Below are positions 1 through 64,000 of a stretch of DNA of 64,000 nucleotides, in pieces. A program made the translations under genes and the position numbers. The stretch comes from Calothrix sp. NIES-4105 (GTDB lineage: Bacteria > Cyanobacteriota > Cyanobacteriia > Cyanobacteriales > Nostocaceae). Position 1 is the first letter of the stretch. Every line of letters begins with the position of its first letter. The notes beneath the pieces were generated by a model. That model did no database searches. It saw nothing but the letters and a program-made list of their open reading frames with translations, and was not told the DNA's origin. Location: NCBI RefSeq assembly GCF_002368415.1, contig NZ_AP018290.1, positions 7,679,717-7,743,716 on the forward strand, in the 5' to 3' direction.

Positions 1-1
1 A

Positions 2-1336
2 AACGTGTTAGCTCAAAGCTTACAATCATGTAACCAAAATCCTAGCGAACTTAATGGATTTATAGTCAGCGCACTTATTAATTTACAAGCACGTGAAGCG
101 GCACCACAAATAAAATACGCATTCAATACAAACCAAGTAGCTGAGGATATAGTAGGTGATTGGGAGGAAGTTCGAGAAAGCTTAGGTATCAATTCAGACG
201 AAGAAGTTGAAGAGTATCAACCCCAAGCATTACAACAATTAGCTGAAACTAATATTGAAGCAGAAAAAGCAACACTTGAAGAAGAGCAACAGCGTCAAGA
301 AGAACTTAATGCTTTGATTGATATAGTCGCAGAAACTGCCGAGATAGAAACTCAAACGCAAGAAAATACACTTCCTACAACCGAGTTAGCTTCCGAAATT
401 ATTGATACAGAAACTTCTACTGAAGAAAATACACTTCCTACAACTGAGTTAGCTACCGAAGATACTGAGACAGAAACTTCTACTGAAGAAAATACACTTC
501 CTACAACTGAGTTAGGTATCGAAGATACTGAAACAGAAACTTCAACTGAAGAAAATAGACTTCCTAAAACCGAGTTAGCTTCCGAAGATACTGAAACAGA
601 AACTTCAGCTGAAGAAAATGCACCTCCTACAATTGAGTTAGCTTCCGAAATTATTGATACAGAAACTCAAACTCAAGAAAATGCACCTCCTACAATTGAG
701 TTAGCTTCCGAAATTACCGAGACAGAAACTCAAGAAAATGCACTTCCTACAATTGAGTTAGCTTCCGAAGTCAATATAACAGAACCACCAACTGGAGAAA
801 CAGCATCTTCTACAACTGAGTTAGCTTCCGAACTGGCTAATATAGAAATCCAAGCTCAAGAGAATGCACTTGCTACATCTGATAACGCTTCCCAACTTGT
901 TGAGACAGAAACCTCAACTGAAGAAAATGTACTTCCTACACCTGATAACGCTTCCGAAACTAACAATACTAACTTAGTATCAGGTGAGCCACAATTGCAG
1001 CAGGAGATTATTTATACGCAAGAAAACTTAGTTAGTGAGATACATAAGCTAGAAGACGAGATAGAAGAAGTTGCATCTGAAATTGAAGCTAGTGAGAAAA
1101 CACAAGTAACTGTTGAAGCATCAACTCAAACTGATGATTCGCACGAAAAAACCGAGGACAAATCTACCGAAGCAATTAGTGTAGAATCTTCCGAAGAATC
1201 TTCTGAAGAGTTAAACCCATTGGAACAAGAAGATATTAAAGGCTTTGGGCGCCCTGCCACAACTAAGGAAAAAACGGAGAAACCCCAGAAAGGCAAGCCA
1301 AGCAAAAAGAAAAAGCGTGGTTTCAGCGATTTATAA
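2..1336 (+). CDS. Acidic repeat-rich protein, C-terminal part (runs off the window)
   Basis: The reading frame is open to the left edge, so the true start lies upstream; the first possible start in the window is a GTG at 5. The first ~65 residues (AREAAPQIKYAF, then GDWEEVRESLGI) resemble the end of HEAT-like bacterial proteins that finish in a GDWEDV-type motif. Then come ~10 tandem 21-residue Thr/Glu-rich repeats, an acidic Ser/Glu stretch and a Lys-rich tail ending KKKKRGFSDL. The repeat part is low complexity and probably disordered and surface-exposed. Function not recognised. The GNAT gene begins 21 bases downstream on the same strand. Confidence 0.6.
   Translation, partial: NVLAQSLQSCNQNPSELNGFIVSALINLQAREAAPQIKYAFNTNQVAEDIVGDWEEVRESLGINSDEEVEEYQPQALQQLAETNIEAEKATLEEEQQRQEELNALIDIVAETAEIETQTQENTLPTTELASEIIDTETSTEENTLPTTELATEDTETETSTEENTLPTTELGIEDTETETSTEENRLPKTELASEDTETETSAEENAPPTIELASEIIDTETQTQENAPPTIELASEITETETQENALPTIELASEVNITEPPTGETASSTTELASELANIEIQAQENALATSDNASQLVETETSTEENVLPTPDNASETNNTNLVSGEPQLQQEIIYTQENLVSEIHKLEDEIEEVASEIEASEKTQVTVEASTQTDDSHEKTEDKSTEAISVESSEESSEELNPLEQEDIKGFGRPATTKEKTEKPQKGKPSKKKKRGFSDL
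347..960 (+). repeat. In-frame 63-bp tandem repeat (21-residue unit)
   Basis: About ten copies of a 63-base unit encode variants of ETSTEENTLPTTELASEDT. Neighbouring copies are nearly identical at the DNA level, while outer copies (around 780-960) have drifted and one unit is shorter. Such arrays change copy number by slippage or recombination without breaking the frame. Confidence 0.85.
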
Positions 1337-1357
1337 TTGAATACAGGGAATTAATTT

Positions 1358-1861
1358 ATGAATATTCGCTGCGAAACTTCGTCAGATTATCCAAAAATAG
1401 CAGAGGTAATTACTGCCGCTTTTGGACAGTCAAACGAAGCTAAACTTGTAGAGGCAATACGTGATTCAGAAAATTATATTCCCCAACTTTCCTTGGTTGC
1501 AGAAATTGACGGTAACATCGTCGGTCATATTTTATTTAGTTACATACATCTTATAAGTAAGGAAATTCTGCCTGTGTTAGCTTTGGCGCCAGTAGCAATT
1601 TCTCCACAGTTCCAGAACCAAGGTATAGGGACTGCTTTAATAAAATACGGATTAGAAAAAGCAGACGAATTAGGAGAAGCATTAGTAATTGTACTTGGTC
1701 ATCCCTCGTTTTATAGCCGTTTTGGTTTTGTTCAATCAACTTATTACGGTATAAAATCACCATTTGAAGTTCCAGCCGAAGCTTTTATGGTGAAACCGTT
1801 GAAGAACTACGAAATAAAATATACAGGCGAAGTTGTTTATTCAAAAGCATTTAATTTGTAG
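1358..1861 (+). CDS. GNAT-family N-acetyltransferase (YhbS-like)
   Basis: The 167-residue protein has the GNAT fold signature. Residues ~50-60 (AEIDGNIVGHILFS) form strands 3-4, and PVAISPQFQNQGIGTALIKYGLEKA carries the acetyl-CoA pyrophosphate-binding Q-x-x-G-I-G-x-A loop. VLGHPSFYSRFGF is typical of the YhbS/COG3153 branch. The ATG follows an AGGGAA ribosome-binding site at 1344-1349. The acceptor substrate cannot be told from sequence. It is convergent with the amidase gene on the other strand, 13 bases away. Confidence 0.88.
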   Translation: MNIRCETSSDYPKIAEVITAAFGQSNEAKLVEAIRDSENYIPQLSLVAEIDGNIVGHILFSYIHLISKEILPVLALAPVAISPQFQNQGIGTALIKYGLEKADELGEALVIVLGHPSFYSRFGFVQSTYYGIKSPFEVPAEAFMVKPLKNYEIKYTGEVVYSKAFNL

Positions 1862-1874
1862 GTGGGGCTATGCC

Positions 1875-6000: not shown

Positions 6001-6189
6001 TTATGGTTCAAAAACTGGCGCCGCTTCTACCTCATCAGGCAACTCAAACTCATTCACAACTGAAGCAATATTACTTATCCGTTCAAAATTAGCAACAACC
6101 CCATCCTTATACTCATCACGTAACTTCAAATCAACCAACAAAGCCATATGCTCAACAAACACCCTCATCTCCAACTTTCTCTCTTCCAT
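6001..6189 (-). CDS. AtzG-like DUF4089 small subunit
   Basis: A 62-residue helical protein ending NEFELPDEVEAAPVFEP, the characteristic C-terminus of the DUF4089/AtzG family. In studied systems AtzG is a GatC-like small subunit that binds and supports the AtzE amidase. The ATG at 6189 follows a purine-rich AGAGAGGAAAG site. It begins 52 bases after the abgT gene, so the two are probably co-transcribed. Its expected partner, atzE-like at 1875-3239, is 2.8 kb further on, beyond an oppositely oriented gene. Confidence 0.82.
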   Translation of the reverse strand: MEERKLEMRVFVEHMALLVDLKLRDEYKDGVVANFERISNIASVVNEFELPDEVEAAPVFEP

Positions 6190-10507: not shown

Positions 10508-11992
10508 TTACGGGATGTTAGGTATGCAAAAGTCGGGAGCGCATAAACCTGATATTTTTAAAGTGGTTACTTCTAAGGTATTTAGGTTCACTCGTCGAAT
10601 AGCATGATTGTTAGTGTCTGCTATATATAAGTTGGAGTTTAAAATGCTTAGTCCTGAAGGTTCAGAGAACTTGATATTACTGGCACCATTACCTAGCACT
10701 GTTTTACATTCACCTGTTCTGGGATTAACTAATTTGATTTTATGGTTATAGGTATCAGCAACCCAAACATTACCTTGTGCATATTCTACACCCATACAAT
10801 GTTGTAATCTTACTTCTTCTCCAATACCGTCTTTGTCACCAAATAGATATAAGTCACCGCTACCACAAATTGTTGTAACTTTGCCAGTTTCTAAGTTAAT
10901 AGCACGAATTGAACTACTTTCACTATCTGCTGTGTATAGAAAATTACTGTTAATGGTAATACCGCTTGGTTGAGCAAACACTGAGTTTTCTAACTCTCCA
11001 TCAAAACAAGCTTCGGCGCCTGTACCAGCGTAAGTTTTAATTATATTGGTTTCCAACTCCATCATCCAAATTTGGTGTGAACCTGCCATTGCAATATAAA
11101 GTTGATTTTTGTGCTTTACTAAATCCCAAGGAGAATTTAAAGGGGTATCTAAAGCATTACCTTCAGTTGGATGTAAGTTACGGCTCTGTATACCTGTTCC
11201 TGCTATTGTTTCTACAAGTTGGCGCCGTAAGTCAATTTTACGTAAAGCATGATTTTCTGTATCGGCAACATAAAGAATTTGGTTTTCATCAAACACTATT
11301 CCTTGCGGTGCAAAAAATTCTGTACTGGAAAAATCACCATCTTTTAATCCTGATTTTCCGCTGCCAATTACATGTAGAAGCTCTCCCTCTAAAGTTGTAA
11401 CAATAATACGATGGTGTCCTGTGTCAGCTATAAATAAGTATGAAGGAGTTGCTAAAACTTTACCGGGAAAAGCTAATGGGGTAATTACAGGTTGTTGCTG
11501 CTTCTCTAAAATTAGATTTATTTTTTGAAGATTAATTGTGCCTTTGTCTTGATGCTGTTGAATGACCTTTTGTATTAACTCGTCTAAAACATCACGCTTG
11601 CCTTCTCCCATTAAAGTAGCAATTAAATAACCTTCTGGGTCTATTACCATAAAGCTAGGATAAGCGCGCGCTGCGTATTCTTGCCAGACTCGAAAATCTT
11701 GGTCTACTAAAACAGGGTGTTCGATATCATAGCGTAAAATAGCTTGACGGATATTTTGGATATCTTTCTCGTTATCAAATTTGGCAGAATGTACACCAAT
11801 AACAGTGAGACTATCTTTATATTTTTGTTCAAGATATTTTAAATCTGGCAGTACGTGTATGCAGTTTATACAGCAGTAAGTCCAAAAATCTAAAATCACT
11901 ATTCGACCCTTAAGTTGTTTTATTGATAAGGGTTTATCCGTATTTAGCCAAGTATAAGAAAGGGGTAGTTCTGGCGCCCGTACACGAACCAT
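10508..11992 (-). CDS. Thioredoxin-like / NHL-repeat protein (NHLRC2-like)
   Basis: A 494-residue two-domain protein. Residues 1-~150 are a thioredoxin-like fold of the TlpA type (GRIVILDFWTYCCINCIHVLPDL), with the redox pair in CINC. Residues ~170-490 form NHL repeats of a beta-propeller, with recurring IADTGHHRI, VADTENHALRKID, VADTYNHKIK and IADTNNHAIRRV. No signal peptide, so probably cytoplasmic. The arrangement matches the NHLRC2 family; the partner is unknown. Its stop codon is flush with a REP palindrome. Confidence 0.9.
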   Translation of the reverse strand: MVRVRAPELPLSYTWLNTDKPLSIKQLKGRIVILDFWTYCCINCIHVLPDLKYLEQKYKDSLTVIGVHSAKFDNEKDIQNIRQAILRYDIEHPVLVDQDFRVWQEYAARAYPSFMVIDPEGYLIATLMGEGKRDVLDELIQKVIQQHQDKGTINLQKINLILEKQQQPVITPLAFPGKVLATPSYLFIADTGHHRIIVTTLEGELLHVIGSGKSGLKDGDFSSTEFFAPQGIVFDENQILYVADTENHALRKIDLRRQLVETIAGTGIQSRNLHPTEGNALDTPLNSPWDLVKHKNQLYIAMAGSHQIWMMELETNIIKTYAGTGAEACFDGELENSVFAQPSGITINSNFLYTADSESSSIRAINLETGKVTTICGSGDLYLFGDKDGIGEEVRLQHCMGVEYAQGNVWVADTYNHKIKLVNPRTGECKTVLGNGASNIKFSEPSGLSILNSNLYIADTNNHAIRRVNLNTLEVTTLKISGLCAPDFCIPNIP

Positions 11993-20908: not shown

Positions 20909-21148
20909 ATGAATATCGAAACTGAAATCATCACAAAGCTTAAATCGCTACCCATAGATAAACAGATGCAACTTCTCGACTTTGCGGAATTTTTAGAGCA
21001 AAAAAATATACTTGTTCAAAAGAAAAAAGAACAACTAAAACAGCAGTTGAAAGAAGGCGCCATTCGTCGTGCAGAACGTGACCTTAAGGTTGCCCAAGAT
21101 TGGTTTGCACTTGAGGAAGAAGCATGTCAGCCCAGCGCAGAGCAATAA
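20909..21148 (+). CDS. DUF2281-like antitoxin
   Basis: A 79-residue protein whose N-terminus (IITKLKSLPIDKQMQLLDFAEFLEQK) matches the DUF2281-type antitoxin pattern, followed by a charged coiled helix. It overlaps the next toxin gene by 25 bases in another frame, so translation is coupled. Probably neutralises that MazF-like toxin. Confidence 0.8.
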   Translation: MNIETEIITKLKSLPIDKQMQLLDFAEFLEQKNILVQKKKEQLKQQLKEGAIRRAERDLKVAQDWFALEEEACQPSAEQ

Positions 21149-21489
21149 TTCCTAAGCGTGGGGAAGTGTATTTGGTTAACTTTGACCCAACAGTTGGTGC
21201 CGAAATTAAAAAAACTCGCCCAGCTTTAGTGCTGCAAAATGATATTGCTAATGAGTATAGCCCAATCATTATTGTTGCTGCAATGAGTTCTAAGTACGAT
21301 GAGAAACTTTTACCAACAGAAATTTTAGTCCATCCTCCTGAAGGTGGAATTAAGTTGAGTTCAGTTGTGCAGCTTAATCAAATTCGCTCAGTAGACAAGC
21401 AGCGATTGATTAGAAAATTAGGTGAACTCACAGAAGCAACAATGATAGAAGTAAATGAAGCCATACAAATTAGTTTGGGTTTAATCTAA
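21124..21489 (+). CDS. MazF/PemK-family toxin (second copy)
   Basis: A 121-residue endoribonuclease-type toxin with the diagnostic GEVYLVNFDPTVGAEIKKTRPALVLQND and VVQLNQIRSVDKQRL segments. It starts inside its antitoxin gene. It is only distantly related to the toxin at 20500-20847, so the two pairs are independent modules rather than recent duplicates. Confidence 0.92.
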   Translation: MSAQRRAIIPKRGEVYLVNFDPTVGAEIKKTRPALVLQNDIANEYSPIIIVAAMSSKYDEKLLPTEILVHPPEGGIKLSSVVQLNQIRSVDKQRLIRKLGELTEATMIEVNEAIQISLGLI

Positions 21490-21617
21490 ACAAATTGATA
21501 CAAAAGCTTAAGCTGAGTAAACTTTTTGTAACTTTCTTAGCGTTTTTGAGGTATGTTGCCACGTTCTTGACGCGCGCTTCGTAACCTAAAAGAAAGTTCG
21601 CTACATAAAAATCCCCA

Positions 21618-22700
21618 ATGACAACACTCTTCGATTCGATTAAAGTCGGTGCCTTAACATTACCAAATCGTATGGTGATGGCGCCACTGACACGAGGACG
21701 AGCAGAAAGCGATGGTACACCGACTGAGATAATGGTGCAATATTATCGGCAACGTGCAACAGCAGGATTAATAATTAGTGAAGCAACTTCGATTTCACCT
21801 CTTGGGGTAGGTTGGGTAAATGCTCCCACTATCTTTAAACCCGAAGATATTACAAACTGGCAAACTGTAACTGATGCAGTCCATCAAGCAGGAGGTCGTA
21901 TCTTCTTACAACTTTGGCATATGGGAAGAGTATCACACCCTGATTTTCTCAACGGACAACAGCCAGTTGGACCATCAGCTATTGCAGCTCAAGGTGAAAG
22001 CCATACACCACAAGGTAAAAAACCTTACGTTACACCTCGTGAACTGTCAGTAGAAGAAATTCGTGCTACTGTTGCAGATTATGCTACCGCTACTAAAAAC
22101 GCGCGCTCTTGTGGATTTGATGGTGTAGAAATACACGGCGCCAATGGATATTTAATAGACGAATTTTTGAGAGATAGTGCAAATCAACGTAATGATGAAT
22201 ATGGTGGCGCCATTCCCAACCGTGCGCGCTTCATGCTCGAAGTTGTTGAAGCTGTAGTTTCTGCTTGGAGTGCCGACCGTGTAGGCATTAGACTATCACC
22301 AGCAAATCCCTACAATGATATGAGTGATAGCGACCCCATTGGATTATTTACTTATGCTGCTGAACAATTAAATAAATTTGAACTTGCCTATTTACATGTT
22401 CTCGAAGGACTTCCTGGTAGTGTGTTGGCAGGCCCAGAACCGCGCGTTACACCTCATATTCGCCGTGCGTATAATGGAATACTGATAGTTAATGGTGGAT
22501 ATAACCAAGAGTTGGGACAAAAAGCCATAGAAAATAATGAAGCGGATTTAATCGCTTACGGTACTCTATTTCTCGCTAATCCTGATTTAGTTGAACGCTT
22601 CCGCGAAGGTACAGCACTTAACACTCCAGACCCGCATACCTTCTATACTCCTGGAGAGAAAGGTTACATTGACTACCCAATGTTGACGGCTGTTGCCTAA
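21618..22700 (+). CDS. Old yellow enzyme family alkene reductase (NemA-like)
   Basis: A 360-residue FMN-dependent oxidoreductase. It has the start LFDSIKVGALTLPNRMVMAPLTRGRA, QLWHMGRVSHP, the substrate-binding HGANGYLIDEFLRD (His and Asn bind substrate, Tyr donates a proton) and the C-terminal flavin site ADLIAYGTLFLANPDL. It reduces activated alkenes such as enones or N-ethylmaleimide with NAD(P)H. Full length. No evident ribosome-binding site; it appears monocistronic. Confidence 0.94.
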   Translation: MTTLFDSIKVGALTLPNRMVMAPLTRGRAESDGTPTEIMVQYYRQRATAGLIISEATSISPLGVGWVNAPTIFKPEDITNWQTVTDAVHQAGGRIFLQLWHMGRVSHPDFLNGQQPVGPSAIAAQGESHTPQGKKPYVTPRELSVEEIRATVADYATATKNARSCGFDGVEIHGANGYLIDEFLRDSANQRNDEYGGAIPNRARFMLEVVEAVVSAWSADRVGIRLSPANPYNDMSDSDPIGLFTYAAEQLNKFELAYLHVLEGLPGSVLAGPEPRVTPHIRRAYNGILIVNGGYNQELGQKAIENNEADLIAYGTLFLANPDLVERFREGTALNTPDPHTFYTPGEKGYIDYPMLTAVA

Positions 22701-22733
22701 GTAAAGAAACTTTGATCTCCCCAACTTTTGTAG

Positions 22734-22750
22734 GGTGGGCAATGCCCACC
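22734..22750. repeat. REP-like palindrome, family 1, near a stop codon
   Basis: GGTGGGCAATGCCCACC with a GTAG foot, three bases from the stop of the GCS-like gene and 33 bases after the reductase gene. The two genes converge on it. Confidence 0.8.
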
Positions 22751-22753
22751 TTA

Positions 22754-23851
22754 CTACCGATACGTTTGCATCAGTGCTTTTTCAATTGAACCTAATCTGT
22801 TGTACGCTCGAATCATTTGATGTGCTGGAGTTTCGCGCTTTTCTAACAAATTTTTGAGCGGCGCCAGTAACTCAACATCAGGGTCATTACTAAGTGCAAC
22901 TTCGGCAGCTTGAAGAACCTCAGTTGCGGCGCCAAAAATTTCTTCATTGTCAAATGCTTCTTGTGCTGAGAGTTGATGTAATGCAGCATCGGGAACAATT
23001 GCCCGACCTGATAAAGTTGTATCCAGTACTAAACCCTTTAATAAAGCTAATATTCCAGCATAAATACTAAAATCATCGCAGCTATCACAAGCCTTAAATT
23101 CAATTCGACCTACTTCTGCTGGTAAACGCGCGATTTTTGTAAGTGCAGGAACGCTTGAAATGAGTTGTTCTTGTTCTGCTACAAATACCCGTGTTGCCGC
23201 GCGCTTTCCTGTACGAATAAATGTCCTTACTGATAATCCTTCCCATAAACAGGTTTCATAGAAAGGAGAACTATATGTAAAAGGAACAATATACGGACTG
23301 TAATAAGTTAATTTTTGACCAATATCAATTACACTTTCTACTGACAAATCAGCCATTGAAATATTTAAGTCAGGTCCATACGAAACCATGTAGATATTGA
23401 CCGTTTGCTCGTCTGGATATGCCTGCAACTCACTGATTTCATACGCATTTAACGGTGGTTGGGCTTCGTATTTTGATTGATAAGGATTGTAACTAATTAA
23501 AACTGGAGAAAGCCCAAACTTAGAAGCAACTTTGCATAATAAAGAAAAACTTTCATTAAGCTCTATAATAGTATCTTGAATGCTAGAGTGAATTGTAGTA
23601 CGTATCTCAATTCCTTTCGGAACGCATTCTACAAATTCCTCTGACTCTGAATAACGCTCAAATCCCTCAATATACCATCTTTTTTTTCTAATTCCAGCAT
23701 CACCCATATGCAGTTGTAAATAATCATCAGCATACTCTGGTAATGCTTCAATTATCTGATTAAAATCAGCAAACTTAGCACGCGAAAAATCAACAAAATT
23801 TCCTGCAAGGTCAACAAAAGCAACCTCGTGTTCTATGCCATATTTAAACAT
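22754..23851 (-). CDS. Glutamate-cysteine ligase-like (GCS2-type) enzyme
   Basis: The 365-residue protein starts MFKYGIEHEVAFVD, where GIEHE is the metal/ATP-binding entry motif of the GCS2/carboxylate-amine ligase family. RIEFKACDSCDDFSIYAGILALLKGL fits the family's conserved R-x-E-x-R-x-D block. Enzymes of this type join glutamate to an amine such as cysteine with ATP. It differs from the usual cyanobacterial GshA, so the true amine substrate is uncertain. ATG at 23851; monocistronic. Confidence 0.7.
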   Translation of the reverse strand: MFKYGIEHEVAFVDLAGNFVDFSRAKFADFNQIIEALPEYADDYLQLHMGDAGIRKKRWYIEGFERYSESEEFVECVPKGIEIRTTIHSSIQDTIIELNESFSLLCKVASKFGLSPVLISYNPYQSKYEAQPPLNAYEISELQAYPDEQTVNIYMVSYGPDLNISMADLSVESVIDIGQKLTYYSPYIVPFTYSSPFYETCLWEGLSVRTFIRTGKRAATRVFVAEQEQLISSVPALTKIARLPAEVGRIEFKACDSCDDFSIYAGILALLKGLVLDTTLSGRAIVPDAALHQLSAQEAFDNEEIFGAATEVLQAAEVALSNDPDVELLAPLKNLLEKRETPAHQMIRAYNRLGSIEKALMQTYR

Positions 23852-23872
23852 TATTTACACCTATAATCATTT

Positions 23873-23981
23873 GCAACAGATACAACAGATGTAACGGATA
23901 GTTGATTTCTTAAATTGAAGGCACCCCCTAAACGGTTACTATAACGAATAAATCATCCGTTACATCCGCTACATCCGTTGC
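23873..23981. repeat. Imperfect 27-bp inverted repeat
   Basis: Arms at 23873-23899 and 23955-23981 are reverse complements with about four mismatches, built from gatgtaacggat. The core is ~55 bases. The left arm recurs at the 3' end of the exoprotein gene (5971). The rest of the 487-base spacer 23852-24338 shows no gene. Confidence 0.65.
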
Positions 23982-24338
23982 CAATAACCTCCTACTACTT
24001 GCTAAAGATTAGCAAATAACTTGTTAATACTACTGTCTGCTTAGATACATTGATGCTTGACAGAAAAAAGTATAATTTAATACATTAATTGCTCAAAGCA
24101 TATCCAGCAATAATTAAAAATAATTGTCAATATTGGTATAAACAAATTTTATCGCAATACTTGATGTTGAGTATGAGCAAAAATTGATTAGATTATAAAA
24201 TAAGATACTTAAGCTAGGAGCTAGTGATAAAAATACCTAATAGCTAACTCCTCAATTTCCGATTTTTCATCCCTAGTTCCTTAACTTACCGTTCGTTAGT
24301 ATGGACATAAGGACAGCTTTAGCTTTAGGCGTAATTTT

Positions 24339-25025
24339 ATGATGAGTATGGTTAAATCTCCTTACAGCAGCGAACAAGTGAGTGCGTGGTTACGCGGGTT
24401 GCTCGCTATTGCTTGGGCAGATGGTGACTTCGATGACCAAGAACAGCAGCTAATTGCTAGCATTACCGAAAATGAATTAGCTCCTGGCTTAAAAATCGAG
24501 TCGCTAGAAGATATTTCGCCAGACGAACTTGCTCAGGTATTAGGAAAAGGTACACCAATAGCAGAAAATTTCTTACGAACTGCGGTAATGGTGGCAATTG
24601 CTGATGGAATGTACACGAAAAGTGAAGATTATATGCTTCACGAGTTATGCAAAGCTTTGGGTGAACCAGAAAATATCCTTGAAGCTTTACGCTACACCCT
24701 TGAACATCCAGAACAAATTGACCCCGCAACATCACAAGTTTTAGTTATAACTCCTGGTGGTCAACACCAAAATGCACTTCATCCTCTGCGTGAATGGCTC
24801 GATAAGCTCGAAATTCATGACCCCAGAGTCGCGCGTTTTTTGTGTAAAATGATTCCTTCTCACTGCCCGTTTGAACGTGATGTAACTTTATTCAAACGCA
24901 AAATAGTTCATATTCCTCCGTTATGCAAACTAAATCCCCTGTACGAACAACTAGTCGGTTTGCGTTTCCGCGCGCTTTCTTACTTAGCTGATGATTGTGG
25001 TGAGGATGTTACTCCGTATATATAG
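24339..25025 (+). CDS. TerB-like / Mo-dependent nitrogenase C-terminal domain protein
   Basis: A 228-residue fusion. Residues ~10-125 are a TerB-like helical domain (AWLRGLLAIAWADGDFDDQEQQLI, then TAVMVAIADGMYTKSEDYML). Residues ~145-228 match the Mo-dependent nitrogenase C-terminal domain (PLREWLDKLEIHDPRVARFLCKMIPSHCPFERDV, then LYEQLVGLRFRALSYL), named from nif-linked proteins of diazotrophic cyanobacteria. No nif genes are nearby, so a role in nitrogen fixation is only suggested. It is one of three TerB-like proteins in this window. Confidence 0.85.
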   Translation: MMSMVKSPYSSEQVSAWLRGLLAIAWADGDFDDQEQQLIASITENELAPGLKIESLEDISPDELAQVLGKGTPIAENFLRTAVMVAIADGMYTKSEDYMLHELCKALGEPENILEALRYTLEHPEQIDPATSQVLVITPGGQHQNALHPLREWLDKLEIHDPRVARFLCKMIPSHCPFERDVTLFKRKIVHIPPLCKLNPLYEQLVGLRFRALSYLADDCGEDVTPYI

Positions 25026-25060
25026 AAGAGTGCTGAGTGGAAAGTGCGCTCGTGCTGAGT

Positions 25061-25112
25061 GTAGAGACACGATTAATCCCTGCGGGAAAACCTCCGGTTT
25101 ACGTGTCTGTAC
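25061..25112. repeat. GTAGAGAC-family hairpin
   Basis: Arms gtagagacacg and cgtgtctgtac enclose a smaller gcggg/cctccgg-type inner hairpin. It shares the GTAGAGAC foot with the elements at 36587 and 52156. It follows directly on a degenerate heptamer stretch. Confidence 0.6.
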
Positions 25113-25177
25113 GAGTGGTAGCAATTTTAGCTAAAAATCAAATAACGGGTTAATGGTTCCAAGAATATTTATAATAG

Positions 25178-26269
<1,092 letters not shown>

Positions 26270-26355
26270 ATTACCTATGCAAATTACTGCTCTCTGTGTA
26301 CTCTGCGCCTCTGTGGTAATAATTTCAAATTACATTTTTTATACAAAACACGTTT

Positions 26356-26398
26356 GATCCCCCAACCCCCGTTCCACACGGGGGTTAGGGGGTATTTT
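26356..26398. terminator. Bidirectional terminator / C-rich hairpin
   Basis: ATCCCCCAACCCCC and GGGGGTTAGGGGGT form a long near-perfect stem followed by a T run. It sits between the convergent obgE and kinase genes. A diverged relative lies at 44054-44092, so it is also a dispersed element. Confidence 0.8.
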
Positions 26399-26404
26399 TT
26401 AATT

Positions 26405-28591
26405 TTATAAATAAAGGTTAATAAACTTTTTAATTTTTTTAACTTCATATTTTTTCGCCATTTTTTGTATTTTAGTTACAAATGGCTTGTATTTTTCATC
26501 TATTTGTTGAAGATTCTCAACTTGAGTAATAATTGCTTTAATATTTCCCTTTTGGGCGAAATTAAATAAAGTTTCTAGTTCTTTTTTAGGAGGAGCGATG
26601 ATTGCTATCTCTTCTTGTGATTCTGATGTAATTTCGCTTTGTTGTGTTTTTTGCTCGTAAACCCACTCTAATTTTAAATGTTGTTGAAGTTTATGTAGCA
26701 AATCCGAAGCTTGTATTGGCTTGGGAAGAAAATCATCGCCACCAGCATCTAAACTATTATATTGGTCAGTCTCAAATGCACTGGCAGAGGAAACAATAAT
26801 TATTATATCTTTAAGAGTCGGTGATAAACGGATATGCCGGATCATTTCTAAGCCATCCATTACTGGCATTCGTAAGTCGCAAATAATTAAGTCGGGCTGA
26901 AAATTATATGCTTTGTCTAACCCCTGCTTTCCATTGACTGCTTGGGCAATTTCAAACCCTATTGCTTCTAACAAGTTCACTAACACAGAACGATTTTCCC
27001 AACGGTCATCTACAACTAAGATTTTTTTACTGGCGCCTTTAATACCAATAATTTTACCTTGAGCAGAAGTTGCAGCAGCTTCTACCCAGTTAGACGCTTC
27101 AGCAAAATCAACATCAAACCAAAAAATGCTACCTTTACCCTCTTCACTTTTAACCTCAATGTTACTATTCATTAATCGCACAATTTTCTGACTTATTGCC
27201 AAACCCAATCCCGTCCCCTCTGACTGCTTTTTGTAGCTGCCTACTTGCTCAAAAGGCAAAAATATATTTTCGGTTTGTGTAGTATTCATACCAACACCAG
27301 TGTCGGCAATTTGAAAGCGAATTTTGTAAGTTGCTTCTTGATTATTCGTTTGCTCTATAACTTCAACGCTAAATTCAACGTGTCCCTGCTCGGTAAATTT
27401 AATTGCATTCGAGAGTAAATTAATTAACACTTGTCGTAATCTTTTCTCATCAGTGTGGATGGCACTAGGCAAATTTTGAGATGTTTGATAAGCAAAATAA
27501 ATACCTTTTTGTTCGGCTCGAATCCGACATATTTCTACTACACCTTGCAGAAATGATGCAAAATGAAAACTCGAATTGAAAAGTTCCATTTTCTGAGCTT
27601 CAATTTTTGATAAATCTAAAATGTCATTAATTAAAGTCAGCAAATGTGAGCCGCACTCATGAATTACAGTTAAACCACTTTGTTGCTTTGCTGTTAACCC
27701 TTTCTCGCGCTGAAGAATTTGAGTGTAACCTAAAATACCGTTTAGAGGAGTTCGCAATTCGTGACTCATCGAAGCTAAAAATTCGCTCTTTGCTTGATTT
27801 GCTTTATCCGCTGCTTGTTTCGCTTCTTGGAGCGCTTGAGTTTTTTCTTTCTGTTCGTTAATGTTACGAGAAGACCTTAAAAGACCTATTACTCTACCGT
27901 CGTCATCTTTTATGGCGCCTACAACACTATCCCACCAAAGTTCTCGACCCTTAGCATTAATAGAAATATACTCAATTTTGGTACGTTCCCCTTGACGCGC
28001 TTTATCTAATGCTGCATACATTTGTTCTTGATATTGCGGTTTAATGCTGCCAGCACAATCTACCCCATAAACTTCTTCTGCGCTTTTTAATTCATTAATC
28101 TCAACTCCTCCCTGGTTCATATAGATAAACTTGCCATCTAGGTCAATATGGCAAACACAGTCTGAAGCGTTTTCTAACAGAGTTCGATAAATATTTTCCG
28201 AACGTCGTAGTCTATCTTGAATTTGCTTTGATTCTGTAATATCGCGCGCTATAGCATATGCTACTCCTTGTTGATAGCGCGATATTGTCCAAGCTAACCA
28301 ATAATAACTACCATCCTGATGTCGAAAGCGGTTTTCAAATTTAGCTCCGTCTTGTTGACACTGTTTATTTATACTAATAGTTTTTGCTACATCATCTGGA
28401 TGAACAAATTCAATCCAATGTTTTGAGTATAATTCTTGAAAATTCCATCCCAAAATTTCCCACGCGGAATTGACCTTTTTAAAATATCCTTCTTGTCCAA
28501 TAATGCAGCATAAATCGACAGACATGTCAAAAAAAGCAGACTCGCTCAATTCTTGATTTGATGTTATATTTGAATGCTGAATATTATTCAT
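26405..28591 (-). CDS. PAS-PAS hybrid histidine kinase with receiver domain
   Basis: A soluble sensor. Counting from the longest frame (26 residues more), PAS domains span ~42-150 and ~155-275. HisKA follows with phospho-accepting His303 in MSHELRTPLNG. HATPase_c carries N (LLSNAIKF), G1 (IADTGVGM) and G2 (GTGLGL) boxes. A receiver domain has Asp598 in LIICDLRMPVMDG. The last ~70 residues are helical. Start set at the ATG of MNNIQHSN (28591), because the longer frame adds only a hydrophobic Phe-rich stretch. No response-regulator partner is adjacent; the signal is unknown. Confidence 0.92.
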   Translation of the reverse strand: MNNIQHSNITSNQELSESAFFDMSVDLCCIIGQEGYFKKVNSAWEILGWNFQELYSKHWIEFVHPDDVAKTISINKQCQQDGAKFENRFRHQDGSYYWLAWTISRYQQGVAYAIARDITESKQIQDRLRRSENIYRTLLENASDCVCHIDLDGKFIYMNQGGVEINELKSAEEVYGVDCAGSIKPQYQEQMYAALDKARQGERTKIEYISINAKGRELWWDSVVGAIKDDDGRVIGLLRSSRNINEQKEKTQALQEAKQAADKANQAKSEFLASMSHELRTPLNGILGYTQILQREKGLTAKQQSGLTVIHECGSHLLTLINDILDLSKIEAQKMELFNSSFHFASFLQGVVEICRIRAEQKGIYFAYQTSQNLPSAIHTDEKRLRQVLINLLSNAIKFTEQGHVEFSVEVIEQTNNQEATYKIRFQIADTGVGMNTTQTENIFLPFEQVGSYKKQSEGTGLGLAISQKIVRLMNSNIEVKSEEGKGSIFWFDVDFAEASNWVEAAATSAQGKIIGIKGASKKILVVDDRWENRSVLVNLLEAIGFEIAQAVNGKQGLDKAYNFQPDLIICDLRMPVMDGLEMIRHIRLSPTLKDIIIIVSSASAFETDQYNSLDAGGDDFLPKPIQASDLLHKLQQHLKLEWVYEQKTQQSEITSESQEEIAIIAPPKKELETLFNFAQKGNIKAIITQVENLQQIDEKYKPFVTKIQKMAKKYEVKKIKKFINLYL

Positions 28592-28806
28592 AAAAAAATA
28601 AAAAAAAAGAAACTGGAACACTTGCAATTGTGTAATAGCTAGTTTTCCAGTTCGTCTTAAATATAACACTAAGATTATGACAATCAGATAAAGCTACGGA
28701 TTAAATAAATCAAAACTTTCACATTTTGTTTCCCAGATTACAATTATCGTACTAACCTGATGGTAAGATGTTGCATAACCATATCTGGCACCTAGAGCAA
28801 ATATTA

Positions 28807-28965: not shown

Positions 28966-29202
28966 TACCCCAATCCTTTATATTTTGTAAACTTTAAACG
29001 ACTAACTGTGTAATATCTTTAACTAAGTTATTAACGTGCGGCAGACGGAATATTCTCTATGCTAGCAACGGCGCCAAGTAACATCAGTCAAACAATTACA
29101 TAAATTTACGAATAGTAAGTTATGCACCTTTCGTTGTATAATTGTTATGATTGCCAACTTATGCACAAAAATTTATAACAGTTAGAGTCAGGGCTACCAA
29201 CG

Positions 29203-30159: not shown

Positions 30160-30160
30160 T

Positions 30161-34679: not shown

Positions 34680-34713
34680 TCAATACTCAGCACTCAGCAC
34701 TCAGCACTCATTA
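34680..34713. repeat. Heptamer array (actcagc)
   Basis: About four tandem units between converging psb35-like and terB-like genes, ending at the latter's stop codon. Confidence 0.85.
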
Positions 34714-35142: not shown

Positions 35143-35199
35143 GATTGCCTTTATGAGTGGATTTCACCTTGATGTAATCCTAACAACACAAGCAAGCTT

Positions 35200-36531: not shown

Positions 36532-36586
36532 TAAATTTAATTTTTTTTAATTTATATACACCATCATAAAATACACGAAAATACAC

Positions 36587-36614
36587 GTAGAGACGTTACA
36601 TGTAACGTCTCTAC
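36587..36614. repeat. Perfect 28-bp palindrome (GTAGAGACG family)
   Basis: Fully symmetric about 36600/36601, from GTAGAGACGTTACA outward. It shares its arms with the copy inside atzE (2478). Confidence 0.9.
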
Positions 36615-36623
36615 AACAATCTG

Positions 36624-36799
36624 TAAGGGCGGGTTAACAAATATCCTAGTTATAAACAAAAAATATCTATAAACCCGCCCCAACTCCTGTAAGGGCGGGT
36701 TAACCAATATCCTAGTTATAAACAAAAAATATCTATAAACCCGCCCCAACCAAAGTAAAGGCGGGTTAACCAATATCTATAAACCCGCCCCAACTCCTG
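36624..36799. repeat. Three tandem hairpin repeats (gggcgggtt / aacccgccc)
   Basis: Two copies of a 66-base unit at 36624 and 36690 and a shortened one at 36756. Each has gggcgggtt and aacccgccc arms around an AT-rich middle with atatcctagttataaac. The third lacks an internal ~22 bases. Related single copies occur at 51774 and 61672. Confidence 0.88.
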
Positions 36800-36820
36800 C
36801 CCCAACCAAGATCCAAAATC

Positions 36821-38278
36821 CTAATACCGTACAGCATCAACAACGCTACCAATTTCAAACTCACACGCGCGTGATACAAGTTCTTGGGGTAATTCTTCAA
36901 AGCTAACCAAAGGTAAGTGTTGAGGATTTTCGATAAGTTCTTTTGCAAGCAAATAGCCGGCAATAGTCCAGGTTTGGTACTTGCGAGCTTGTTTACCAAT
37001 CAATCTTCCCTTCTTACCATCGTAGTACTCAACCCATTCATCGTTCTTCAAACGTGGAGCTGCAACAGCAATTGCTTTTTTAGCAAGGTCAATACGGTTT
37101 GTTTTCACAGCAGCAGCAGCTAACATCCACAGTAAAACAGGCCAGCTTCCTGCGTTGTGATACGACCAAGGAATATTCTTAGGGTCACATCCAGTCACAA
37201 TTCGATATTCTTCACCTTCCAAAGCAGGGAAGCAAATTTTCATCGGCATGTCTCCAACTAAATTATCCCAGCGTTGGTCTACCAAATTCATAATCGCTTG
37301 CGATTGGTCTTCAGTAGCTAGTTCTGAAATAATTGCCATCAAGTTACCGAGTGAGAAGAACCGTGTATCGAGTTGTGACGGTCCAACGTTACCTGCTAGA
37401 TAACCACCATTCATAGGTAGCCATTTGTCTAGTTCGTAATAAGGAAGCGAATCACTATATATATTGAATAAATTTACTGCCGCTTTTCCATACTCTTCAC
37501 CTTTAAAGCGGTAAATTGCATTCAGACGGTTAATATCGATCCAGTAGTGCTGACGAATATGAGCGCACAACAGTGGTAAACGATTATCAATAGCTGCAAC
37601 AATATTTTCGTTATACTCAGATACTAATAGTTCGCGCGCGGCACGTAGTGAAGCATAAAATAAAGCTTGAATTTCTAGCGGATGTCCATAAATTCCCATC
37701 CGACGGTCAATCATGCAGGCGCCATCTGGTACCAAGAGCGTTGGGTACATGTCAAAACGGTTAGCCAAACATAATTCAACAATTAATTTGATGCCAGTTT
37801 GAAATTCGGGTTGATAAGCAAAACAGTAGTCTTTGGTTGCCACTACATACGCGCGCAACAAAATAATCCACCATAAGCAGGAATCCACAGGTGTCACTCT
37901 TGCGATAGCATGTTCACCAAAGTCGGCATCAAGGTATTCTTGCCCGTCGATTGACACAACCTTAAAACTAGCGGGCATTAATCCGCGCGCTGGTTTGTAA
38001 GCGTCGAGTTCTCGTTCTTTAGGTTGCAACTTTAGAGTTTCTTCGAGGAAGTTACGAACAATATCAGTTCTACCCTTCATTAAAAATATCAGAGCAGATG
38101 ACACAAAATCGCGTACAAATACTTGGTCATAATTTAGAGCTTCTGTTGAATTATCAAAAGCCGCTACCGTCCCAATTGGGCGCCCTTGATAATAAACAAT
38201 AGATTTTTCTAAAGCGTCCCAAGCTTCGCTATCGATATCGGTGCCTTTTACTGTCGTTGTTAAGTCCTTAAGTTGCAT
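36821..38278 (-). CDS. GH100 alkaline/neutral invertase
   Basis: A ~485-residue cytoplasmic enzyme that hydrolyses sucrose to glucose and fructose. Typical GH100 segments: [64 protein letters not shown] and [17 protein letters not shown], with catalytic Asp/Glu within these blocks. Start placed at the ATG of MQLKDLTTT (38278), because AAGGAGT lies ten bases before it. The longer frame begins at a TTG that overlaps that ribosome-binding site. Confidence 0.93.
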
Positions 38279-38299
38279 CGCTAAATAACTCCTTTTCAA

Positions 38300-39884
38300 T
38301 TTGTAATTTTGTAATCTTTCTGGTAGAAGCGCCTTTTTTTACCTTGCTATCTTCATGTTAACAACTTGTTAGACAGCAGATATTATTATCCGCACTTTTA
38401 ATAACGACTATATTTACAAATCAGTCCGCAGTGAAAATTTCTACGGTTTTCATTTGTAAATTACTTGTAGCTGATGCTTGTTTAATTGTCCTTTCATACC
38501 TGAATTATTACGCAATACAAGTATAAAAATTGCTCAAACTTTAAAAACTTGTACGCTCCGCTGCAACAAGATTAAACCACTTATTTACATTACCTGGATA
38601 TCATATTTTACAAACTAATACATCAGTTTGACTTATCCAGAAAATTTTGACTTAAGTAGTTTTACTAGCTTCTAAACGCAAGATGTTCAAGTTACCAGAC
38701 ATATTATTTGAATTCATATTACTCATAATTTATAACCTTTTTTCACAATATGCAACATTATTTTCATAATTGACGCATCCCACGTATGCTTAAGCAACAT
38801 AGTTAACCAAAAATTAATTCTTGGTAATCATTTAGGCATTAATAAAAAATCTTAGAACCTTTAATGTAGTTAGCACGAGAGCAATAAAAAATTAAACACC
38901 AGCTTTATAAACTGTTTTGAAAGTGCTATTTTTTACATCCTACAAAAGTTTACAAAATTAATTAATTTGATGATTAAGATCAGCAGATTTTATTTTTTGT
39001 CAATGCCATCAACTTCATAAAATGCAGTTAAGCATCAAAAAGCACAGTTGACAAAATCTATTCCACATGATAACAACCGAGTTTCTTGGTCGATATCTTG
39101 TAATAAAAATAACAGTTTTGCGTAGAAACCCAGTTTCTTCGTAGTAAAGAAAGATTACATAGTTTGAGATTCAATGACACTTACTATTATTTTTACTTAT
39201 GAATATATATATCTGTAAATGGTTATACAAAACAAATACATATTAGAAAATTCATAACATAAACTAAAGTGTGACGTTTAGTTCCTATTGAATATTACGA
39301 CATTATTACCGTTGTATATATATTAGCTTACTTGAATATACAAACACTTAGTAAAAAATTAGTGAAATTGACCTAATTTTGAAGTTATTGTAAATTTTTG
39401 CTTCGGATGCTAAAAAATATATATCTCTACCGTAATTTGGACACCAAATAATTTCAGAGACTAGCTATGGTAACTTGTCACGCTCGGCACGTTCGTCACG
39501 ATATATATATTTTTGAGCGACTTTAAGATATAAACATCCGTCAAGATGCTTAATTATCAAAGCAAAATAGTTACTTACTCATCTCCAAGAAATTACTTAG
39601 GTAATTATTCTTATATAGATTAGCATATCTTACCTAGGCAAAGGCTAGTCATGCTAATTCATTTACAAGGGGTTAAGGCAATGTAAACCCAAGCTTAATA
39701 CAATACTGCTGTTTTCTGCGTATTATTACGTGGTAAATATGATATAATATCGTAATAATTACAGAAATTATAAAATTTTTATAACGATTAATTCAGTACT
39801 AGAACTTACTATAAACTGTATAGTATTGATACATCTACAATTAATTCCATAGCAGCACTAATGTAATACTTCTATAAATAATCT
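38300..39884. other. 1.6-kb AT-rich spacer without a clear gene
   Basis: Very AT-rich with many runs of A/T and atatatat. It contains short gaaacccagtttcttcg-type inverted repeats near 39127-39147, a CG-rich patch (cacgctcggcacgttcgtcacg) near 39480 and a TATAAT-like hexamer near 39740. Apart from the 24-codon frame at 38652-38726 I see no supportable coding region. It lies between divergent genes and contains promoters for both. Confidence 0.6.
38652..38726 (-). CDS. Possible 24-residue peptide gene
   Basis: ATG at 38726 is preceded by AAGG nine bases upstream. It encodes MSNMNSNNMSGNLNILRL then EASKTT and a stop. It resembles no family I know. The ribosome-binding site and isolation in a long spacer are the only support; it may be chance. 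Confidence 0.2.
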   Translation of the reverse strand: MSNMNSNNMSGNLNILRLEASKTT

Positions 39885-40976
39885 ATGCTTAAAACAATTC
39901 ATGTTGTAAAAACTCCATCAACGGAACGTTTGCTTAACCTTTGGGCACAGCGTTATACACTTGATTTAGGTAAAACGTCTAATACTAATCTTTTATCTGA
40001 TAGTGTGCTGCTAGACAATGCTTGCTTACAAGGTCGTGCGTCAACAGCGAAAAAGTTGAAAGATAGTATATTAACAGTCAACTGCCAGATGGGGTGGATA
40101 CAAACAAAGACGCTTTACGCTTATATTCCGAATGTAGTAGATTTGGCTGAAGCGCGTCGAATTACACAGTTCGCGTTTCGCGTATATAAGAAGTTAATTG
40201 ATGTCTACCAAACAGGGAATTATACAGACGAAGTACTGACACAAGATAAGCGTGTAGCTTTTAAACTGCCTGCAATACAAGAGTTAGCGTATGCTCTGGA
40301 ACCGACATTACTGATTTTTCAGGAACAGCATATTGCATCCAAAGACTGGCGTGCTTTAGGGTTCATGACAACACAGCTAAATTTTACTAATAAATTAATT
40401 ACTAAAAAGCTAGAACCTGTAGAACGAGTTTTGCTTGCTCCTTATTTGAAGTTCGTTGAAGAGCAAGTTGCAATACCTTGGCAAAGAGTTTGCGGTGCGA
40501 GTGAGAAACATAGTGTAGACTCGGCTGAGTTTCGCTTGGTTGAAGAAATGCTACCCCAGGCGCCATCAATTGCTTGGGCTGTTTATAATAGACTTTTAAA
40601 ATTATTACCCGACTATCGGACTCGTCGCGGGCATTTAGGTGACGAGGATATAGCTCACTCGTGCATCCGCGACTTAAACATGTTTCAAGCTTACCTTTGG
40701 CTATGTTTATTTGAAGGTAACATTGCGCCAATACAGCTAGAGTTACTACCTTTGTGCGCGATGGTCGTCCAAGGTGTCAATATTAAATGGGAACTGACTG
40801 AAAAATGGTGGCAGGTTTTGGAGCAAGAAATTTTTAGTCGCGTAACTCCCCAAGCTCAACAGCTTATAATGCCTTATAGTCAGCAAATACAAGAATTATT
40901 TTGGTCTGGGCGCGATCGTTTAGGCTACCAAGAAGATAATCTTGATGCTCGTAGGTTGGGTGAAGCGCTGGCGTAA
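39885..40976 (+). CDS. Conserved hypothetical protein
   Basis: A 363-residue soluble, mostly helical protein. I do not recognise a domain. Visible features are WIQTKTLYAYIPNVVDLAEARRITQFAFRVYKKL, PYLKFVEEQVAIPWQRVC, and a charged segment RTRRGHLGDEDIAHSCIRDLNMFQAYLWLCLFEG. No signal peptide or membrane helix. Codon use matches the neighbours. It is preceded by the long AT-rich spacer and its stop lies in a hairpin shared with the converging gene. Confidence 0.75.
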   Translation: MLKTIHVVKTPSTERLLNLWAQRYTLDLGKTSNTNLLSDSVLLDNACLQGRASTAKKLKDSILTVNCQMGWIQTKTLYAYIPNVVDLAEARRITQFAFRVYKKLIDVYQTGNYTDEVLTQDKRVAFKLPAIQELAYALEPTLLIFQEQHIASKDWRALGFMTTQLNFTNKLITKKLEPVERVLLAPYLKFVEEQVAIPWQRVCGASEKHSVDSAEFRLVEEMLPQAPSIAWAVYNRLLKLLPDYRTRRGHLGDEDIAHSCIRDLNMFQAYLWLCLFEGNIAPIQLELLPLCAMVVQGVNIKWELTEKWWQVLEQEIFSRVTPQAQQLIMPYSQQIQELFWSGRDRLGYQEDNLDARRLGEALA

Positions 40977-41005
40977 CCCAACGTTAACAAGCTTTAAGTT
41001 GGGTT
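40975..41005. terminator. Shared terminator of converging genes
   Basis: AACCCAAC and GTTGGGTT arms around ~15 bases. The stem contains the stop codons of both flanking genes. No long T run. Confidence 0.6.
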
Positions 41006-62393: not shown

Positions 62394-62754
62394 TTTGTGA
62401 AATCCTCTCTTTACGGTTTCTAGCTTAGGGTTTCTAGACTAATCTTGAATACGGACATGGCGAATCGGTTGCTAATCGGACTCGACATGCTTGTGATAAA
62501 ACTTAATATTTTGATTCTACAAGCTTTTGTGCAACCAGGTCATTTTTTGCCTTTTACACAACTAAACTCACACAAAAACTGATTTTTTGAATGCCTCTGT
62601 GGCATGAGAAACCGAAGATTAATTATTAAGTAATTGTTATTTCAATTTGGTTTATATATTTTAAATACTTATGTTAAAATTTGGTTATATCAGGGTTAAT
62701 GATAGCACAGGCGAGAGGCCTATGCTACAAAGGTACTAAAATTAATGACGCGCG
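62394..62754. other. 361-bp spacer with a caggcg hairpin
   Basis: Promoter region of sodB; the rest is AT-rich. A tagcacaggcg...gcctatgcta hairpin at 62702-62726 is a diverged copy of the 58354 element. A plus-strand frame here is a shadow of the next gene. Confidence 0.55.
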
Positions 62755-63822
62755 TTATGTTAATTCTGAACCGTTGGTAAATTCGATGTCGGTAAATTCG
62801 ATAGTGTCGATGAAGGCTAGTACATTGGCTTTCATTGTCTCGGCTTCGGTATTGATGGAGTCGGGAATTTTATCATTTAAGAAACTTCGTTGACTTGTAA
62901 CGATGTATATAAAGTTTTGTTGTTGAAACGCGATGATACCGCGATATGCATCGAGTCTCTGAGGATGACCGTTGTTTTCCTGCTTGGATATTGTTGAACC
63001 ACCAGGCATGTTTACTAAAGCAAAATAGGCGCCTTGCATTTCCAAGTCCAAAAATTCAGTATATTCTACAGAAGCGGAAGGTAAATTGGCTACTATCGCT
63101 TGTGGAATATATTTGTCTAATAAAACTGATTCAAAATATTGTTCCCTTCCTGCGATGTTAATTTCGTCTCGCTGAGATGGAGGAATAAGGTAGTAGTCAA
63201 TTCTTAGTAAAGTTCCGTAGTCGTCAGAAAAACCTACCATTCCTTCTGAAGAATGAATTTTTCCGCCAGCATCAGGAGTTACGGGGATAGAAACAGTAAA
63301 ATTACCTTCTGGAGAAGAGTAAGTATCTTCGTCAAGCTCAGTTGTTTCATCATCTAAAATATCTTCGTCAAGTTCCTCAAACGCAGTTAACACTTCTTCT
63401 ATTACTTCGTTTGCTTCTTCCTCTTCGACTTCTAGTACAGATTGTAATTGTTTGAGCAAAGGCATTTTCGCTTTAGGAATAGCAATGTCATCCTCGGACA
63501 CTAAAACGCTAACTCCTGCTGCAAACCCATCTAGAACTAGTTCATCAGTAAGGAACTCGTTCGCAGCGTTAAATAAAGCACCTAATCCATCAGTCTCCGC
63601 AATTGCTATTAATTTACTGATGATTTCTGAAAGTGCATTGTCGTCATATCCCTCAAACACCTCAAAACCCCAAAGGGTATCAATAAGCATTTCGATATCT
63701 ACATTTTCAAGCGTTAAGTCTGCTGCTGTCGTCACAACGGCAATAGCTGCAACTGCTTCTTCTGGACTTAAAACCTGTTCAGATAAATCATCCGAGTGAA
63801 AAATTTCATCGTACTTACCCAT
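62755..63822 (-). CDS. Acidic TerB-like N-terminal domain protein
   Basis: A 355-residue protein. Residues ~15-150 are helical with a TerB-like layout (SPEEAVAAIAVVTTAADLTLENVDIEMLIDTL, then SVLVSEDDIAIPKAKMPLLKQL). A strongly acidic linker (~150-175, EELDEDILDDETTELDED) joins a C-terminal beta-rich domain (FTVSIPVTPDAGGKIH, YFALVNMPGG, RGIIAFQQQNFIYIVTSQ) of the kind seen in PsbP/DUF1795-like folds. No signal peptide. Function not recognised; the third TerB-like gene in the window. Confidence 0.75.
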   Translation of the reverse strand: MGKYDEIFHSDDLSEQVLSPEEAVAAIAVVTTAADLTLENVDIEMLIDTLWGFEVFEGYDDNALSEIISKLIAIAETDGLGALFNAANEFLTDELVLDGFAAGVSVLVSEDDIAIPKAKMPLLKQLQSVLEVEEEEANEVIEEVLTAFEELDEDILDDETTELDEDTYSSPEGNFTVSIPVTPDAGGKIHSSEGMVGFSDDYGTLLRIDYYLIPPSQRDEINIAGREQYFESVLLDKYIPQAIVANLPSASVEYTEFLDLEMQGAYFALVNMPGGSTISKQENNGHPQRLDAYRGIIAFQQQNFIYIVTSQRSFLNDKIPDSINTEAETMKANVLAFIDTIEFTDIEFTNGSELT

Positions 63823-63934
63823 ATTTACCCCCTTTTTGTCAGCTATCCACTATCTATTCTTCACTATCTGCATCCCCGATTGGCTAATTCATTAGATAAT
63901 ATGGATTCGGTATTTCTGCCAATTGGAGAAACGA

Positions 63935-64000
63935 ATGGGTCGCGCGAAGAAGGTTATTTTGGCATATTCAGGTGGGGTAGATACTTCGGTATGTATTCCC
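63935..64000 (+). CDS. argG: Argininosuccinate synthase, start only
   Basis: The last 66 bases encode [20 protein letters not shown] and two more residues, the ATP-binding P-loop start of argininosuccinate synthase (citrulline plus aspartate to argininosuccinate). GGAG lies eight bases before the ATG. The gene runs off the window. Confidence 0.9.

Follow-up and report, generated by a model that had tools for sequence, protein, structure and literature searches.

GGCGCC as an iterated, probably methylated palindrome in the place of HIP1 in one cyanobacterial genus

Introduction

Highly iterated palindromes (HIPs) have been described as palindromic, GC-rich words in extreme excess across a genome, where they generally occur 1,000-2,000 times per Mb (Elhai 2015, PMC4390886). 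HIP1, the octamer GCGATCGC, is accompanied by a CGATCG methyltransferase (Elhai 2015); M.Ssp6803I has the first C of CGATCG as its target (PMC6604393), and HIP1 has been reported to be maintained by selection (Xu 2018, as cited in PMC6604393). Here we analyze a stretch of 64,000 bases from Calothrix sp. NIES-4105 (NZ_AP018290.1, positions 7,679,717 to 7,743,716; hereafter the window), in which another palindrome, GGCGCC, is found in the place of HIP1.

Elhai (2015) has listed GGCGCC among the alternate HIPs, from Calothrix PCC 7103 and from 19 kb of a second strain, Calothrix D253, and also two GRCGYC methyltransferases in PCC 7103; the base methylated by the GRCGYC enzyme is given there as unknown, and exceptional HIPs are called sporadic. 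This was the only paper returned by our literature search that joins GGCGCC, a methyltransferase and Calothrix. GRCGYC is the site recognized by BsaHI, whose methyltransferase M.BsaHI modifies the central C (PMC2413257), and it is also listed for Haemophilus influenzae Rd (PMC8565308).

Since PCC 7103 belongs to the same genus as the window, with the same word, near-absence of HIP1 and GRCGYC methyltransferases, the phenomenon is of a known kind. Where the earlier account dealt with one genome and 19 kb, we cover all seven genomes of the genus, two of them with a single enzyme copy, and measure conservation and decay of the sites. What is added is thus the genus-wide nature of the trait, an enzyme without its nuclease, a missing methyltransferase group, the maintenance of the sites and their C-to-T decay. 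GGCGCC resembles HIP1 in being palindromic and GC-rich, in occurring about once per kb both within genes and in spacers, and in being linked to a 5-methylcytosine (m5C) methyltransferase; it differs in the word and in the enzyme.

Results

The window contains 100 copies of GGCGCC, one per 640 bp, where a first-order Markov model expects 6.1, and neither an instance of GCGATCGC nor more than one CGATCG. A preliminary description of the window, made from its letters, had estimated about ninety sites against about four expected and had seen no GCGATCGC, which the counts bear out. The whole genome of 12.04 Mb (chromosome 11.06 Mb) holds 18,131 GGCGCC, or 1,506 per Mb, against 7 for the backwards string used as control; GCGATCGC occurs 125 times against 75 for its own backwards control, so that HIP1 is near background and not entirely absent. 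A 424-kb sample (18 chromosome pieces of 20 kb plus the window) has 650 GGCGCC, an excess of 16.5-fold over a first-order model; relative to a second-order model that masks the sites, the excess is 31.9-fold. Two 20-kb plasmid samples hold 12 and 61 sites (73 in 40 kb, 24-fold). In this density and over-representation, and in that HIP1 is low where the alternate word is high (31-163 copies in all seven genomes), GGCGCC agrees with the HIPs of Elhai (2015).

Taking open reading frames (ORFs) of at least 150 amino acids as genes, 45 of the 100 window sites are read in the frame GGC GCC, the other two frames account for 16 and 25, and 14 lie outside ORFs, in agreement with the earlier impression that the word occupies genes, spacers and all reading frames. 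The density is greater in coding than in noncoding sequence (1.71 vs 1.11 per kb), as would be expected if GGCGCC were common simply because Gly-Ala pairs and GC-rich codons are common. However, 249 of 543 Gly-Ala pairs (45.9%) are spelled GGC GCC where codon usage predicts 2.1%; G330, a relative of the HIP1 type, spells 5 of 920 pairs in this way. The word is also frequent in every reading frame and outside genes. Together with the 31.9-fold excess, these counts refute composition or codon usage as the cause, to which we attach practically no weight.

The swap is a well-supported clade trait. In a comparison set of 217 family genomes, it is present in all seven genomes of the window's genus and in none of the 210 others. 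GGCGCC and HIP1 number 18,131 and 125 in the window genome (G000), 19,393 and 58 in Dulcicalothrix desertica PCC 7102 (G388), 17,704 and 163 in Calothrix PCC 7103 (G389), 15,449 and 88 in HK-06 NIES-2101 (G380), 20,380 and 66 in PCC 7716 (G391), and 7,475 and 147 and 14,889 and 31, respectively, in the metagenome-assembled genomes C42_A2020_038 (G390; hereafter C42) and FI2-JRJ7 (G353); GGCGCC densities range over 1,150-1,711 per Mb. Among the other 210 genomes the maximum is 1,053 GGCGCC, in a genome with 1,270 backwards controls, while HIP1 exceeds 1,000 in 206, the remaining four being G511 (30), G522 (535), G519 (574) and G513 (990). Thus, the proposal that a lineage had swapped its palindrome is well supported for the genus as a whole (7,475-20,380 GGCGCC against 31-163 HIP1 in seven of seven), and neither outcome that would tell against it, genome-wide enrichment of GCGATCGC or GGCGCC counts near the Markov expectation, was seen.

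Among the 388 genomes of the order that were scanned, GGCGCC was raised also in G170 (3,403) and G008 (2,493), both of family f9, and in G037, G060, G193, G001, G116 and G194. We rejected the two f9 genomes as independent cases: a G170 sample (4 x 20 kb) shows a 1.6-fold excess with abundant HIP1, and the methyltransferase matches of both are distant (32-40% identity). G136 (872 GGCGCC) encodes a 61% relative of the enzyme described below (group A), but the word stands at 0.5 of expectation in the 34 kb around that gene. As a separate observation, G059 holds 9,489 GGCGCC over 3.8 Mb, against 2,450 for the backwards control. It encodes a 53% relative of the same enzyme and shows a 3.6-fold excess in a 16-kb sample (L263) at 53% GC; it may be a weak independent case of a GGCGCC rise.

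The 89 matches to PF00145, the family of m5C methyltransferases, in the seven genus genomes were clustered, and two groups proved to be represented in all seven: group A (L010 and its orthologues) and group Y (L019 and others). Group Y is also present in all four HIP1-rich relatives examined. The group A orthologues are 80-99% identical among themselves, with a full-length enzyme in every genome. They share 54.5% identity with a plasmid gene annotated hindVM; their recognition loop differs at few positions from that of the enzyme adjoining RE_HindVP in G309, and the FAG, PCQ and ENV motifs, the TI loop and the NAVP stretch are found in seven of seven. By this likeness to M.HindV and M.BsaHI, group A is probably a HindV/BsaHI-type GRCGYC m5C methyltransferase with the central C as its probable target, and each genus genome encodes an enzyme predicted to recognize GGCGCC. 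The depletion of GGCGTC, GACGCC and GACGTC in the window genome sample is compatible with GRCGYC specificity.

Unlike the HindV system, group A has no HindVP nuclease beside it and occupies a conserved chromosomal locus. The RE_HindVP nuclease (PF09519, E <= 0.001) has no match in the seven genus genomes vs 43 of the 210 others; 42 of these matches lie above the curated cut-off, and some are fragments. Of the 210 family genomes from other genera, 55 encode the group A enzyme (E <= 1e-60). The 39 with an RE_HindVP match have a median of 5 GGCGCC, the 16 without it 61.5 (p=1.8e-4, uncorrected for kinship), from which it follows that restriction accompanies GGCGCC avoidance. Among carriers of group A, the explosion of GGCGCC is seen only in the window's genus.

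In six of the seven genomes, the group A gene is flanked by genes for a RuBisCO-like protein and for an S-layer/GHL10 protein. In NIES-2101, residues 1-85 and 209-313 of this gene stand at two contig ends, 97% identical to the PCC 7103 and FI2-JRJ7 copies, and the gene was probably split by draft assembly; the full-length enzyme of this genome (L041) is a different copy on a contig without the shared neighbors. Extra copies of about 60% identity occur in the window genome (two, on plasmids), FI2-JRJ7, NIES-2101 (incomplete), PCC 7103 and PCC 7716 (one whole, one in pieces), and PCC 7102 and C42 have a single copy. In the 20-kb locus of the window genome, none of the 18 other ORFs of at least 90 amino acids matches a restriction or Vsr Pfam family, and six match nothing; about 8 kb from the enzyme there is an SfsA protein with a domain that Pfam describes as an RE domain. 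Two side observations concern the surroundings and the relatives of the enzyme: a BrnT/BrnA toxin-antitoxin pair adjoins the methyltransferase in the window genome (L304:9116-9654, G000:C1) with no match at the six sister loci, and 55-59% relatives of the enzyme are found in six contigs labelled Candidatus Poribacteria (L207-L211, L213).

A third group of methyltransferases, group X (L134, L135, L137, L140; 422-445 amino acids), is present in all four HIP1-rich relatives examined and is the best match of none of the 89 genus hits, being thus missing from all seven genomes. Its distribution makes group X the leading candidate for the CGATCG methyltransferase. The L009 group was also considered and dropped, as its relatives of at least 75% identity occur in merely some 40 of the 217 family genomes. 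The genus genomes have GATC at 0.07-0.31 of its expected count and G330 at 0.76, in line with Elhai's idea of a past GATC restriction. The suggestion in the preliminary description that the swap might reflect a change of methyltransferase specificity thus holds in part: a GRCGYC-type enzyme without nuclease is present and the candidate CGATCG-type enzyme is missing, but nothing indicates that one enzyme altered its specificity.

The new sites do not stand where the old ones were. In a comparison with 20 HIP1 at 71% identity, none of 38 GGCGCC lay within 3 bp of a former HIP1 position, leaving site-by-site replacement unsupported, and 3 of 38 lay within 10 bp against 0.7 expected (P=0.03), a weak excess in a small sample. 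The swap hence concerns the genome-wide pattern.

Between the genomes of the genus, GGCGCC sites are maintained. Alignments to the six sister genomes cover about 44-51 kb of the window at 83-87% identity. Because the window is common to all of them, the comparisons are not independent, and most conservation figures come from this one syntenic region. Five sisters keep 68/89, 73/89, 69/88, 74/91 and 60/75 sites (76-82%), and C42 keeps 41/77, vs 38-46% and 27%, respectively, for other all-GC hexamers; the flanks of the sites are conserved about as the average. Where the amino acid is conserved, the codons GGC, GCC, CGC and GCG are retained in the five sisters at 89-93% inside sites vs 51-54% elsewhere (Fisher p 4e-12 to 7e-18), and in C42 at 72% vs 40% (p=1e-8). 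Among 88 columns that are aligned in all seven genomes and bear the site in one or more, it is present in 7 (15 columns), 6 (33), 5 (15), 4 (10), 3 (2), 2 (3) and 1 (10); the sites shared by all seven are given in Table 1.

Decay of the sites, counted in columns where at least five genomes have GGCGCC, is dominated by one change. The 41 single-base variants comprise GGTGCC/GGCACC (24), GACGCC (5), AGCGCC (4), CGCGCC (3), GCCGCC (2) and three singles; 20 further variants carry multiple changes. The 24 GGTGCC/GGCACC compare with 4 AGCGCC/GGCGCT at what we reason to be equal synonymous openings (two frames each; p=1.8e-4). The same class reaches 1.55 of expectation in the window genome, 1.32 in five sisters and 1.74 in C42 vs 0.41 in G330, while the other eight near-miss classes stand at 0.21-0.85 in the window genome, four of them being low or nearly so in G330 too (0.53-0.55 for three). 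As the C-to-T excess falls on the base that M.BsaHI methylates, it reads as deamination of methylated cytosine and hints at methylation in vivo.

This central-C decay would also be visible if a nuclease of the very short patch repair (Vsr) type mended T:G mismatches at deaminated sites and, in doing so, converted GGTGCC to GGCGCC, and a solitary m5C enzyme of Caulobacter has been described as stabilized by an unlinked Vsr-like protein (PMC12907096). Such repair should deplete GGTGCC/GGCACC, however, and it is this class that is in excess in the window genome, the five sisters and C42; moreover, no Vsr family was found among the enzyme's neighbors, in a search limited to the locus. We therefore regard this explanation as improbable. 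Slightly less probable still is that GGCGCC labels self DNA for natural transformation and was spread by biased uptake, as uptake signals do in Pasteurellaceae and Neisseriaceae (PMC1939737): the density in genes, spacers and plasmids and the conservation between species would suit such a signal, yet it leaves both the methyltransferase pattern and the C-to-T signature unexplained.

The near-miss words bear on a further explanation, Elhai's ratchet, in which G-mC-directed mismatch repair converts one-off words to GGCGCC up to a density of about one site per 1,000 bases, without the sites needing a function. The terminal one-off words AGCGCC, CGCGCC and TGCGCC with their complements are below expectation in the window genome (0.63, 0.60, 0.73), in five sisters (0.31, 0.51, 0.46) and in C42 (0.73, 0.67, 0.50), and not in G330 (1.10, 1.25, 1.17). 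Central-C methylation, as known from M.BsaHI, would supply the G-mC that the model requires, and the densities of 1,150-1,711 per Mb fit the range given by Elhai. On the other hand, the saturation step predicts regular spacing, whereas the gaps are near random (coefficient of variation 0.95 vs 1.00 +/- 0.04; 3.6% vs 4.3% above 2 kb) and in deficit only below 50 bp (2.9% vs 7.6% expected at random), so that our test for density regulation by even spacing yielded nothing beyond that deficit. Nor does the second enzyme copy for which Elhai argued prove to be a requirement, as PCC 7102 reaches 1,701 per Mb with one copy; C42 also has one, though it is the sparsest at 1,150 per Mb. We judge the ratchet a genuine possibility, if on balance an unlikely one.

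Other palindromes deviate as well. GCGCGC, put at about twenty in the preliminary description, occurs 31 times in the window, and CGCGCG, which went unmentioned there, 45 times. The latter is enriched 3.2- to 6.5-fold in samples of all seven genus genomes (masked second-order model) and stands at 0.5 in G330. As a second iterated palindrome it was rejected, being poorly kept between sisters (8-17 of 37-42; 19-40%), which indicates that enrichment alone brings no conservation. TTCGAA, TGCGCA, GCATGC, GTGCAC and CCATGG are each absent from the window where 9-20 are expected, and GATC and GGCC are strongly depleted there. As the first four words are absent also from 80 kb of G330, their avoidance may predate the swap.

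Table 1. Positions of the sites and of the reference stretch within the window
Feature	Position	Strand	Basis or remark
GGCGCC sites (100) across the entire window; GCGATCGC 0; CGATCG 1, at 40913	1..64000	.	word counts
GGCGCC outside ORFs of at least 150 amino acids, example	6017..6022	.	between ORFs 3507-5981 and 6242-7786
GGCGCC shared by all seven genomes (15 such sites in total)	11015..11020	.	seven-genome alignment
Other 14 GGCGCC sites in all 7 genomes (starts)	13051, 15655, 25466, 25898, 33895, 36363, 40559, 41372, 42806, 50646, 56594, 57645, 61060, 61588		
Stretch used for locating the syntenic regions of six sisters	21001..41000	+	alignments then spanned 44-51 kb of the window

Discussion

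With moderate confidence, we read GGCGCC as the palindrome that a single cyanobacterial genus has iterated, and probably methylates, in the place of HIP1. A HindV/BsaHI-type m5C methyltransferase without its nuclease would methylate the central C (GG-mC-GCC), and GGCGCC could accumulate because the HindVP nuclease is absent. HIP1 would have decayed because the likely CGATCG methyltransferase was lost and GATC came to be strongly avoided. As the sites survive while mutation keeps eroding them, something must restore or keep them. Across the divergence of the genus, what holds them against deamination would most likely be weak selection acting genome-wide in favor of the methylated palindrome; the alternative is a repair bias that is guided by methylation and would have the same outcome.

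Several observations weigh against this reading. The specificity that we infer for the group A enzyme, whose activity in vivo is presumed, draws on similarity to relatives, and our survey of PF00145 covers m5C enzymes, so that an N4-methylcytosine or N6-methyladenine enzyme for GGCGCC may exist. The shared-locus copy of NIES-2101 is known only from two end pieces, and the full-length copy L041 carries substitutions beside PCQ and NAVP. In genus g16, four of five genomes have the group A enzyme, lack RE_HindVP and have kept HIP1 with 144-277 GGCGCC, which argues that the enzyme alone is insufficient for a rise of GGCGCC. G522 (10.7 Mb) shows HIP1 eroded to 535 copies with no replacement palindrome in 60 kb, and C42, the most divergent genome of the genus, has the lowest density with 41 of 77 sites kept. 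Two other near-miss classes exceed expectation in the sisters. Finally, conservation by itself cannot tell selection from biased repair, and the data suit selection acting on the methylated palindrome as well as repair guided by G-mC.

The strongest form of our reading is that a whole genus exchanged HIP1 for another methylated palindrome, in 7,000-20,000 copies per genome, and that purifying selection on these copies is strong enough to withstand the deamination of 5-methylcytosine; we put this forward tentatively, at somewhat less than an even chance. If true, the role of a HIP would be transferable between sequences and would reside in the methylated cytosine and not in the octamer GCGATCGC; what matters would be G-mC on both strands about once per 650 bp. 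A natural swap across a genus sets apart what the two palindromes have in common, namely high density and a cytosine methyltransferase that matches the word, from what differs, the letters of HIP1. The question of HIP1 function would thereby become testable, and four of the seven members of the genus bear PCC or NIES culture numbers.

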